From contig NZ_LT607409.1 of NCBI RefSeq assembly GCF_900091505.1, positions 2,790,001 to 2,854,000 on the forward strand: a DNA stretch of 64,000 bases, written 5' to 3'. Origin of the DNA: Micromonospora chokoriensis (GTDB lineage Bacteria; Actinomycetota; Actinomycetes; Mycobacteriales; Micromonosporaceae). Below are positions 46,584 to 63,681 of this stretch, one piece after another. Below the pieces are notes generated by a model, which did no database searches, had not been told where the DNA came from, and saw only the letters and a list, made by a program, of their open reading frames with translations. The position numbers were made by a program, and so were the translations under genes. The first letter of the stretch is position 1. Every line of letters begins with the position of its first letter.

Positions 46584-47870
46584 TCAGCGCAGCGGGGTCA
46601 GCCGGTCGGTGCCCAGGCGCTCCTGCAGGACCTTCGGGACCAGGACACTGCCGTCGGCCTGCTGGTACTGCTCCAGGATGGCCGGGAAGAGCCGGCTGGT
46701 AGCCAGCGCCGAGCCGTTGAGCGTGTGCACGAAACGGGTCTGCTTGCCGCCCGGCTCGCGGTAACGGATGGCGGCGCGACGCGCCTGGTAGTCACCGGCC
46801 CAGGAGACCGACGACACCTCCTTGTACTTGCCGGTGCTCGGCATCCACACCTCGATGTCGAGGGTCTTCTTCATCGAGGCGCTGGCGTCACCCGCCGAGA
46901 GCAACGTGCGCTGGTAGTGCAGGCCCAGCCCCTCGACCAGGCTCTCCGCGTGGGCGAGCATCTCCTCCAGAGCGGCGTCGGCCTGCTCCGGGAGGGTGAA
47001 CTGGAAGATCTCCACCTTGTTGAACTGGTGCCCGCGCACGGTGCCGCGCTCGTCGGAGTGCGAGCCGGCCGACTCCCGCCGGTAGCACGGGGTGTACGCG
47101 AACGCCTTCAACGGCAGCTTCGGGGTCTCCAGGATCTCGTCCTGGTAGGCGCCGAGGATCGCCGTCTCCGACGTCGGCAGCAGGAACTGGCCACGCGGGG
47201 CGGACGCCGAATCGAGGTGGTAGACGTCGTCGTAGAACTTGGGGAACTGCCCGGCGGCGAAGCCGGCCGAGTCCAGCAACAGGTGCGGCGGGAGCAGGAA
47301 CTCGTAACCGGCCCGGATGTGCTGGTCGACGAAGTAGTTGAGCAGCGCCCACTCCAGCCGGGCGCCGATGCCGGTGTAGATCCAGAAACCGGACCCACCG
47401 AGCTTGACCCCGCGCTCGTAGTCGACCAGGCCCAGCGCCCGGCTCAGCTCCACGTGGTCGCGGACCTTCTCGATCACCGGCGGCTCGCCGAAGGTCTTCA
47501 CGACCCGGTTGGCTTCCTTGCCGCCGGCCACGACGTCGTCGCTGGGCAGGTTGGGCAGCTCGCTCATCGCGTCGCGCAGCCGGGCCTGCACCTCGTCCAG
47601 CTGGGACTCCAGGTCGGCGAGCTGTCGACGCTCGGCGTCGGGTGCGACGACCTGCGGCTCCTCACCGGCACGCAACGCCAGCGCGTACGCCCGGGCCTCC
47701 GCCTTGCGGCGCTGCCGCTCGGCGTCGATCTCCGTGATCAGCGCGCGTCGTTCCTGGTCGAGCCGCTGGATCTCGTCCAGGGATCGGGTGACCTCGGCGG
47801 GATCCAGTCGCTTCGCCAACGCGGTCGCCACCGCCTCGCGATCCTTCCGGATCAACTCCATGTCGAGCAT
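46584..47870 (-). CDS. serS: seryl-tRNA synthetase
   Basis: 428 aa. N-terminal long coiled-coil arm (about 25-110, with AEVTRSLDEIQRLDQERR) that binds the tRNA-Ser variable arm. Class II catalytic core: motif 2 near TPCYRRESAGSHSDERGTVR (about 270) and motif 3 in the C-terminus, TLNGSALATSRLFPAILE near 390. It charges serine on tRNA-Ser and, in the same pool, on tRNA-Sec. No T-box is seen in the short leader. Its neighbours do not form an operon with it. Confidence 0.95.
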   Translation of the reverse strand: MLDMELIRKDREAVATALAKRLDPAEVTRSLDEIQRLDQERRALITEIDAERQRRKAEARAYALALRAGEEPQVVAPDAERRQLADLESQLDEVQARLRDAMSELPNLPSDDVVAGGKEANRVVKTFGEPPVIEKVRDHVELSRALGLVDYERGVKLGGSGFWIYTGIGARLEWALLNYFVDQHIRAGYEFLLPPHLLLDSAGFAAGQFPKFYDDVYHLDSASAPRGQFLLPTSETAILGAYQDEILETPKLPLKAFAYTPCYRRESAGSHSDERGTVRGHQFNKVEIFQFTLPEQADAALEEMLAHAESLVEGLGLHYQRTLLSAGDASASMKKTLDIEVWMPSTGKYKEVSSVSWAGDYQARRAAIRYREPGGKQTRFVHTLNGSALATSRLFPAILEQYQQADGSVLVPKVLQERLGTDRLTPLR

Positions 47871-47966: not shown

Positions 47967-49049
47967 CTACAGCCGGATCGGCATCAGCACCGAATAGGTG
48001 TCCGCGTCGTCCGGACGGCGTACGGCCAGCGGGCCGATCGGCCCGTCCAACTCCAGCACCAGTTGCGGCCCGCCGGCCGCGTTCAACGCGTCCAGCAGGT
48101 AGCCGCCGTCCACCCCGACCAGCAGCGCCTCCGAGGTCAGCTCGGTGTCCGGGAGCAGCCGCAGGTCGCCGGTGTCGTCGACGCCGAGCACGGTGACCGC
48201 GCGCGCCGTGCCGTCGTGGTCGCGGGCGACAGTGGGCGCCGCCGGGTCGGCCAGCGCGGCGCGCAGCGCCGCCACGTCCACCGGGATGCGGCGGGCGGTG
48301 GGTCGCTCGCCGACGGCCTGGCGCACCAGTCGGCGGTAGTCCGGGAAGTCGTACGGCAGGGCGCTGCCGGCCAGGGTCCGCCCGGCCACCAGCACCCGCA
48401 GGTCCGCGCCCGCCACGGTCAGCCGCACCGGCCGGGCGTCGGCGGCGGTGAGCAGCGCCCGGATCCGGTCGACGAGATCGACGGGTGCGAACACCCGCAC
48501 CGGCGGACCGTCGACGTCGGCCCGGGCCCGCGCCAGCGCGAGCCGGTACCGGTCGGTCGCGACCAGCCGCACCCCGTCGGACTCCACGTCGAGCAGCACG
48601 CCGGAGAGCATCGGCAGCTCCGGGTCGGCGCCGACGGCGAAGCGCACCGCGTCGAGCGCGGCGGCCAGGTCGGCGGGGGAGAAAAGCACGGTGGTGCTGG
48701 TCTGCGGTGCCGGGTCGACGAGCGTCCGGAGTCGGGTCACCTCACGGCGGGCGTCGGCGAGCCCGTCGACCAGCCGACGCAGGTGCGCGTCGAGCAACAG
48801 GTGCACCGCGGCCGGCTCGGCGCGTACCGCGGCGGCGATCTCCGGCACCGGCATGCCGATCCGGCGCAGCCCGGCCACCAGGCGGGCCGGCGCGATCTGC
48901 TCGTCGGTGTACCAGCGGTAGCCGGTCACCGGGTCGACCAGGGCCGGTTCCAGCACTCCCGCCGAGTCGTAGAAGCGCAGGGCGCTGACGGTCAGGCCAC
49001 TGGCCCGGGCCAGCTCACCGATGCTGTGCAGGTCGCTCACGCTGGGCAT
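47967..49049 (-). CDS. MerR-type HTH fused to a DNA-polymerase III beta-clamp-like domain
   Basis: 360 aa from the ATG at 49049; a GTG at 49040 has better ribosome-site spacing. The N-terminus is a MerR winged helix (SIGELARASGLTVSALRFYD, then YRWYTDEQIAPARLVAGLRR) with a short coiled helix. From about 120 to the end the sequence matches DnaN sliding-clamp domains: LPMLSGVLLDVESDGVRLVA, TDRYRLALARA, LPYDFPDYRRL, and an end YSVLMPIRL like the DnaN terminus YLLMPVRL. A canonical clamp has three such domains; only about two fit here. It may bind DNA polymerase partners or use the clamp fold for dimerisation. Function unknown. Confidence 0.82.
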   Translation of the reverse strand: MPSVSDLHSIGELARASGLTVSALRFYDSAGVLEPALVDPVTGYRWYTDEQIAPARLVAGLRRIGMPVPEIAAAVRAEPAAVHLLLDAHLRRLVDGLADARREVTRLRTLVDPAPQTSTTVLFSPADLAAALDAVRFAVGADPELPMLSGVLLDVESDGVRLVATDRYRLALARARADVDGPPVRVFAPVDLVDRIRALLTAADARPVRLTVAGADLRVLVAGRTLAGSALPYDFPDYRRLVRQAVGERPTARRIPVDVAALRAALADPAAPTVARDHDGTARAVTVLGVDDTGDLRLLPDTELTSEALLVGVDGGYLLDALNAAGGPQLVLELDGPIGPLAVRRPDDADTYSVLMPIRL

Positions 49050-49074
49050 CCTGCCCCCTCGACCCGGTCGAGGG

Positions 49075-50256
49075 TCAAGCCGACGGGTCCAGCACCCGGA
49101 AGGTGAGCCCGGCGCGGACGAGCCGGTCGAGCAGCGCGTCGCCCATCGCGGTGACCGGGGTGACCTGACCGGCGGTCGGCGGCAGGTCGTCGAGCGCCAG
49201 GCAGAGCGCCGACTCACCGAGCATCTTCGCCGTCTCGTCGTAGCCCGGGTCGCCGCCGGCCACCTCGGTGACCACCCGCCGCCCACCCCCGGTGCCGACG
49301 AACCGCACCCGGAACCAGGACGCGGCCCGCTGCTCGGGGGTCGGGCCCTGCCCGGAGGCCAGTCGACCAAGCAGCCACCGTCGACTGGGTGGCACCTTCA
49401 CCAGCCCGATCAGCGCGCCGAGCCCGGCCGCGCCGGCCAGCACGGTGGGCAGCCGCCTCACCGCCGCGAAGTGCCGGTAACGGAAGTCCGGGCCGTACTC
49501 CGGGCGGGCCGCCGCCGATCGGCGGACGACCTGCGGGTCGATGGTCGGCAGCGGGACGGTCCAGATGCCCAGCTCGGCGGAGCGGGCCAGCCGGCCGGGT
49601 ACCGCCCGGACCCGGCGGTCGGTGGGGCGCGGCTCGACCGCACGGCGGTCCCGGGCGGCCCGGCTGGCCTGTGCCGTGCGGGAGAACGCGGTGAGCGCGG
49701 AATGGTACGTGCCGGCGGAGAACCGACCACCGGCGCGCACGTAACCGTCCACGGTGATCGGCACGTCGGCGGGCAGGTGCCTGACGGTGAACCAGGCCCC
49801 CAGGTCGTGCGGGATCGAGTCGAACCCGCAGGCGTGCACCAGCCGCGCCCCGGTGCGGGTCGCCTCGTCGTGGTGGCGCACGTACATCAGGTCGACGAAC
49901 TCCGGCTCGCCGGTGATGTCCAGGTAGTCGGTGCCGGCCCGGGCGCAGGCCCCGACCAGCGGCTCCCCGTGGTGGATGTACGGGCCGACCGTGCTGGCCA
50001 CCACCCGGGCGCTCTCCGCGACCGCGCGCAGCGAGCCCGCGTCGGTCACGTCGGCGGTCAGCAGCGGCAACTCGGCCAGCGCCGGGTCGATCGCCGCGAG
50101 CCGGTCCCGGACGGCGGCGAGACGCTGCTGGTTGCGCCCGGCCAGCGCCCAGCGCAGCCCGGCCGGCGCGTGCCGGGCCAGGTATTCAGCGGTCAGACCG
50201 CCGGTGAACCCGGTCGCCCCGAACAGCACCACGTCGTACGTCCGCTCCCCAGTCAT
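49075..50256 (-). CDS. saccharopine dehydrogenase-like/trans-acting enoyl reductase family protein
   Basis: 393 aa. N-terminal Rossmann fold VVLFGATGFTGGLTAEYLAR (about 9-28) for NAD(P)H, then a family motif VASTVGPYIHHGEPLVGACA near 88 and GTDYLDITGEPEF near 108, followed by HACGFDSIPHDLG near 142. The C-terminal domain is membrane-leaning (TVLAGAAGLGALIGLVKVPP). Relatives include mycobacterial trans-acting enoyl reductases of lipid synthesis and uncharacterised reductases. The substrate is not known. Minus-strand neighbours with short spacing suggest a shared transcript. Confidence 0.8.
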   Translation of the reverse strand: MTGERTYDVVLFGATGFTGGLTAEYLARHAPAGLRWALAGRNQQRLAAVRDRLAAIDPALAELPLLTADVTDAGSLRAVAESARVVASTVGPYIHHGEPLVGACARAGTDYLDITGEPEFVDLMYVRHHDEATRTGARLVHACGFDSIPHDLGAWFTVRHLPADVPITVDGYVRAGGRFSAGTYHSALTAFSRTAQASRAARDRRAVEPRPTDRRVRAVPGRLARSAELGIWTVPLPTIDPQVVRRSAAARPEYGPDFRYRHFAAVRRLPTVLAGAAGLGALIGLVKVPPSRRWLLGRLASGQGPTPEQRAASWFRVRFVGTGGGRRVVTEVAGGDPGYDETAKMLGESALCLALDDLPPTAGQVTPVTAMGDALLDRLVRAGLTFRVLDPSA

Positions 50257-63433: not shown

Positions 63434-63448
63434 TGTCAGTCCTTCCGT

Positions 63449-63560
63449 CAGCCGCCGACCGGGTTAGCTGACGGGTTCGGGACGGAAGATCCCTACCGCT
63501 GACGCGGATGCACCCCAGGAACGTGGTTCCCCGGTTCGCCCGTGTGGGCGATTAGGCGAC
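63449..63560 (-). ncRNA. ydaO/yuaA-type cyclic di-AMP riboswitch
   Basis: On the minus strand, the leader of the peptidase gene carries the ydaO signature blocks in order: TCGCCTAATC, AACCGGGGAACC, GGGGTGCATCCGC, GTAGGGATC, CCCGAACCCGTCAGCTAACC and GTCGGCGG. The end is about 16 bases before the GTG start. In actinobacteria this class usually precedes wall hydrolase and resuscitation-factor genes and turns them off when c-di-AMP is high. Confidence 0.9.
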
Positions 63561-63681
63561 GACCACCACCGGCGCCGGGAGGCGCCGCCTGGTGGCGGCC
63601 GGGACAGAGCCTACCGGTACTCGTGGGGCGGCTGCAGCGAATGTGACGGACGGTGAGTGCGTCAGTACGGGGAACTCACCG

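Follow-up and report, generated by a model that had tools for sequence, protein, structure and literature searches.

A MerR-Type Regulator Carrying a Degenerate Copy of the Sliding Clamp in Micromonospora, a Candidate Sensor of Clamp Ligands

The window analyzed here is a 64,000-nucleotide stretch of Micromonospora chokoriensis DNA (NZ_LT607409.1, 2,790,001 to 2,854,000, forward strand), and all positions are counted within it. On its minus strand, a single open frame at 47967..49040 begins with GTG and encodes 357 amino acids plus a stop, a product that the original prediction described as a MerR-type head and a DnaN-like clamp fold in one protein. Pfam, PDB matches, and an AlphaFold2 model agree on this description, and the MerR-DnaN fusion is confirmed as genuine, one continuous minus-strand protein at these coordinates. 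The head is a winged helix-turn-helix (residues 1-75, 48816..49040) that is recognized by Pfam (PF13411/PF00376; MerR_1, PF13411, at 9-76, E 2e-12, above the cutoff) and over which BmrR-type MerR proteins align in a PDB search. It is followed by a putative dimerization (coiled-coil) helix, a single 33-residue helix in the AlphaFold2 model (residues 76-108, 48717..48815), by clamp domain II (residues 113-243, 48312..48704; PF02767, DNA_pol3_beta_2, at 127-237, E 1.3e-12), and by a degenerate clamp domain III (residues 244-357, 47970..48311), which is matched structurally and for which the Pfam hit is partial and subthreshold (PF02768, DNA_pol3_beta_3, at 303-359, E 2.6e-4); all of these lie on the minus strand. 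PDB clamps align over 122-360. The NCBIfam dnaN model covers 119-360 of the protein and begins only at profile position 125; therefore, clamp domain I is absent. The AlphaFold2 model, with 34 relatives as input, has a pLDDT of 92.4, and its residues 113-357 superpose on residues 123-366 of the E. coli clamp with Z 25.9 and an rmsd of 2.1 Å over 226 residues. Structure prediction against DnaN, the check suggested with the original prediction, recovers the topology of clamp domains II and III (Z about 26), so that the clamp identity holds for two DnaN domains and not for a full clamp. A separate, normal dnaN is present in the same genome. An assembly or frame artifact was considered and rejected because the fusion recurs throughout the genus and in further genera.

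About 96 of the 101 genus genomes have the fusion, which also occurs in Streptomyces, Actinoplanes, and others. A set of 395 Actinomycetes genomes yields about 30 full-length matches, most of the sampled genomes being without the regulator. In a tree of the clamp part, clade A and the divergent clade B group together, separate from the actinobacterial DnaN proteins sampled, which is consistent with a single fusion origin for both clades. The flanking genes, assigned by eye from the ORF list, are saccharopine-dehydrogenase-like upstream (49075..50256, minus strand) and seryl-tRNA-synthetase-like, serS, downstream (46584..47870, minus strand), each conserved as a neighbor in Micromonospora only. 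Reading an operon function from the adh, saccharopine-dehydrogenase, and serS context was rejected, as this context (by eye) is kept only within Micromonospora. Separately, the same genome encodes a MerR paralogue fused to a PP2C-type phosphatase domain (L103:3925-4989; G000:C1 around 4662933), and MerR-PP2C-like fusions were also seen by eye in L107, L109, L110, and L113. Elsewhere in the window, a c-di-AMP riboswitch (Rfam RF00379, 91 bits) lies at 63437-63568 on the minus strand.

Directly upstream of the fusion gene is a MerR-type promoter/operator (49048..49078, minus strand) in which TTGACC and CAGGAT flank a 19-bp spacer with the dyad CCTCGACCGGGTCGAGG. It is present in 30/30 genus orthologues and across genera, and in the 30 genus orthologues first read, it is nearly fixed as TTGACC-CTCGACCnGGTCGAGnnnn-CAGGAT; the stop codon of the gene upstream falls within the -35 element. 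The genus orthologues share a GTG 6-8 bases past CAGGAT, and the fusion gene is leaderless. The frame given in the original prediction, which starts at ATG 49049, is open; however, because this ATG falls inside the conserved -10 element and it is the GTG at 49040, not the ATG, that is conserved, translation of the 357 residues almost certainly starts at GTG 49040. An equivalent promoter layout stands at the fusion gene in Plantactinospora, Actinoplanes, Virgisporangium, and Streptomyces, and clade B has a related but different dyad. Spacers of 19-20 bp mark MerR-regulated promoters (PMC9909328), and a conserved dyad promoter of this type immediately before the gene makes its autoregulation very likely. 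In one Actinoplanes genome (L098), the promoter/operator upstream of the fusion gene occurs in two to three tandem copies.

The pocket residues and ring-closing residues of the E. coli clamp are listed in a review (PMC11139829), and griselimycin and mycoplanecin bind the peptide pocket of DnaN (PMC10817943). Three minus-strand motifs of the fusion gene encode the corresponding pocket: ATDRYRLAL (48534..48560), around E. coli T172-L177; FPDYRRL (48327..48347), around P242-V247; and LMPIRL (47970..47987), equivalent to V361-L366. Among 32 non-redundant clade-A sequences, T162 and R166 in the first motif, P233 in the second, and M353 and P354 in the third are invariant, and R356 is kept in 31 of 32. 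Over the same set, mean conservation is 0.877 at the 18 pocket positions versus 0.657 at the other 218 clamp columns, a value reached by 0 of 100,000 permutations; even the DNA-binding head, at 0.83, is below the pocket. Identity to the host's own DnaN is 13/18 in the pocket versus 43/218 elsewhere in the clamp part (Fisher 7e-6), where the copy has diverged to about 20% identity. The domain III ring-closing residues I272, L273, E298, and E304 are replaced, mostly by V/A/T, P/R, D/G/A, and R/T. With domain I and the interface residues lost, the fusion protein is not a DNA-encircling ring, and a full ring-forming clamp was rejected. The suggestion that the regulator encircles DNA or dimerizes through its clamp is thus not supported; the helix that probably serves for dimerization is the MerR coiled coil, 76-108. 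The accompanying suggestion, that partners may be recruited or bound via the clamp, agrees with the selective way in which the peptide pocket has been conserved. Because the pocket has been selectively kept while the ring was lost, the clamp part resembles a ligand receptor.

A strict pattern search of the 6.9-Mb genome returned one perfect operator, at the fusion gene, and a relaxed pattern with at most one mismatch returned three sites only: the fusion gene, the dnaN side, and a TPR-protein gene. The operator was found in 94 of the 101 genus genomes (93 of the 100 of good quality), mostly in one or two copies, and a reversed-pattern control gave 0 matches across the 101. Many second sites lie ~0.7 kb upstream of dnaN, past dnaA, and adjoin TTGTCCACA DnaA boxes; in M. 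chokoriensis, the site reads TGGACTCTCGACATGGTGTAGGCCACAGGAT. The dnaN-side site is 688-717 bp upstream of dnaN, at the dnaA-side edge of oriC. The first genomes with this site had been picked by pattern, and hence, 30 further genomes, chosen for diversity and for absence of the gene, were scored with a matrix built solely from the fusion gene's own promoters. In this set, the site lies at 688-704 bp in 22 of the 25 gene-carrying genomes (a weak match in two), and the four genomes without the clade-A gene have no dnaN-side site; in the draft genome G464, the fusion gene was not found and the site is present. The site was seen in 42 Micromonospora genomes in total, with 1.40 bits/column versus 0.37 in the upstream flank. 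Because the genomes without it form one clade plus the single genome G012, the covariation of gene and site represents about one evolutionary event.

The dnaN-side site keeps the -35, the -10, and the 19-bp spacing, and a GTG or ATG mostly follows 6-8 nt past the -10. A leaderless peptide at this position was rejected, as there is probably no ORF; the frames are unequal (20-146 codons) and run over DnaA boxes. Since the site is 0.7 kb from dnaN with oriC in between, its effect may be on origin firing and not on dnaN. It was seen in Micromonospora only; in Streptomyces, the operator stands at the gene in 7/7 gene-carrying genomes, where only the fusion gene's own operator was detected, and 0/14 genomes that lack the gene have the operator. 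The extra dnaN copies in prophage-like regions have no operator at them. In two Micromonospora genomes, a region resembling a prophage encodes a second DnaN (L306:9269-10381 and L307:9186-10316), 60% and 77% identical, respectively, to the DnaN of the window genome.

The third operator of the genome precedes a leaderless TPR-protein gene. Several genera have relatives of this gene under the operator in trans (weakly in G051), and at 13 of 17 clade-B loci, the fusion gene is immediately followed by the TPR gene. The model of the TPR protein is all-helical and TPR-like; a fold search gave weak matches only, none with E <= 0.001, and no specific function or PDB match. A Streptomyces TPR homologue was rejected as a regulon member because it is without the operator; it adjoins ung (by eye). 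In two small-genome Micromonospora relatives (L286 and L300), the clade-B fusion gene next to the TPR gene seems to be broken. An operator with three mismatches precedes a leaderless MFS exporter gene of the H+-antiporter/Mef type in M. chokoriensis, and this operator is found in 9/9 true orthologues versus 0/8 distant paralogues. In another genus of the family, YunG-family genes follow the same operator (L245, L248, and L253; Pfam for L253, the others by eye).

The fusion, the ring loss, the selective pocket conservation, the promoter anatomy, and the recurrence of the operator at named genes are established by sequence and prediction. The operator, its copy near dnaN, and the exporter and TPR targets led us to read this odd fusion as a putative clamp-ligand sensor with a regulon, the simplest account that joins the pocket, the promoter type, and the targets. 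We put at about even the chance that the protein is a MerR switch that senses clamp ligands via the copied pocket, with antibiotics as the likeliest ligand. The sliding clamp, a drug target in the organism itself, would then have been copied in degenerate form as the sensor, and a dimer formed by the MerR helix would occupy four promoters with 19-bp spacers: those of the regulator's own gene, the dnaA-dnaN/oriC interval, the MFS exporter, and the TPR-protein gene. Once the copied pocket holds a molecule with affinity for the pocket between clamp domains II and III, the ligand-bound dimer would kink the spacer, as BmrR does, turning the promoters on; the outcome would be more target (clamp), more export, and more sensor. 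Operator binding, activation with its sign, and the ligand are the steps that we infer here. As for the ligand class, griselimycin/mycoplanecin-like antibiotics are possibly the best candidates, followed by clamp-binding peptides of cellular proteins. The narrower version, in which the clamp copy mimics the target to detect clamp-binding antibiotics and induces the clamp gene, the exporter, and the TPR partner, we rate at somewhat below even.

The same pocket could instead read the motifs with which the cell's polymerases, clamp loader, or repair proteins bind the clamp, and so couple the free level of these proteins to dnaN and oriC transcription. This sensing of replisome state would suit a pocket of the same kind as the DnaN peptide site and an operator that adjoins DnaA boxes upstream of dnaN, but a Mef/H+-antiporter-type exporter target fits a drug response better and most of the Actinomycetes sampled do not have the regulator; we consider it rather unlikely. 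It is improbable that the MerR part mainly anchors a clamp-like dock at the origin, recruiting or titrating replication proteins with transcription secondary: that 42 genomes hold the site at one place, the dnaA-side edge of oriC, would agree, yet the site retains its promoter elements and spacing, and leaderless genes remote from oriC are preceded by this operator as well. We assign a similarly low probability to an ordinary MerR regulator whose clamp fold is merely a structural or dimerization domain. MerR regulators do carry many kinds of C-terminal domain, but here, the conserved part is the pocket and not the ring interface, and the pocket was retained in a copy ~20% identical elsewhere. 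A sensor of phage attack on the clamp, through phage clamp inhibitors or phage-borne DnaN, is very improbable, since no defense genes adjoin the fusion gene (neighbors viewed by eye) and an exporter is among the targets, even though prophage-like regions of the genus carry their own DnaN, phage clamp-binding inhibitors exist, and the Gp168 complex is among the structural matches.

If the narrower, antibiotic-sensing version holds, clamp-targeting antibiotics would be common enough in nature to select a dedicated receptor. If the clamp-ligand sensor is the correct reading, transcription in antibiotic-producing actinomycetes would be tied to the replication clamp and the origin. The protein would then offer a biosensor of natural origin for compounds that bind the clamp, griselimycin-type antituberculosis leads among them, and one 31-bp operator would provide a simple rule for finding clamp-ligand-responsive genes. 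Neither a MerR-clamp fusion nor a transcription factor with a sliding-clamp pocket as its sensor is described in the literature searched; the architecture may be on record in automatic domain databases.

By the features tested (the N-terminal winged helix-turn-helix, the predicted coiled-coil helix 76-108, and the dyad in a 19-bp spacer), the fusion protein is a MerR protein, yet it is neither of the BmrR type nor a DnaN, and it is unusual for a MerR protein in both sensor and regulon. With the drug sensors BmrR, TipA, and EcmrR, a class that senses drugs and controls exporters, it shares the winged helix, the coiled coil, a C-terminal sensor, and the 19-bp-spacer promoter; it differs in that clamp domains II and III replace their GyrI-like or TipAS sensor and in that its operator is also found at dnaN/oriC. 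With DnaN, it shares domains II and III and the peptide/antibiotic pocket between them, whereas domain I, and thus the three-domain architecture, and the ring-closing interface are absent and a DNA-binding head is present. It is not the replication clamp, the genome having a normal dnaN. The beta-lactam receptors BlaR1 and MecR1 likewise control resistance genes through a sensor domain related to the drug target. The likeness is one of working and not of descent, as these are membrane receptors that signal by protease and have no sequence relation to the fusion protein. Lastly, GriR and MypR, the extra DnaN-derived resistance clamps of griselimycin and mycoplanecin producers (PMC10817943), are also DnaN-derived proteins tied to clamp antibiotics, a tie that for the fusion protein is hypothetical; unlike it, they are full DnaN proteins that confer resistance rather than regulators.
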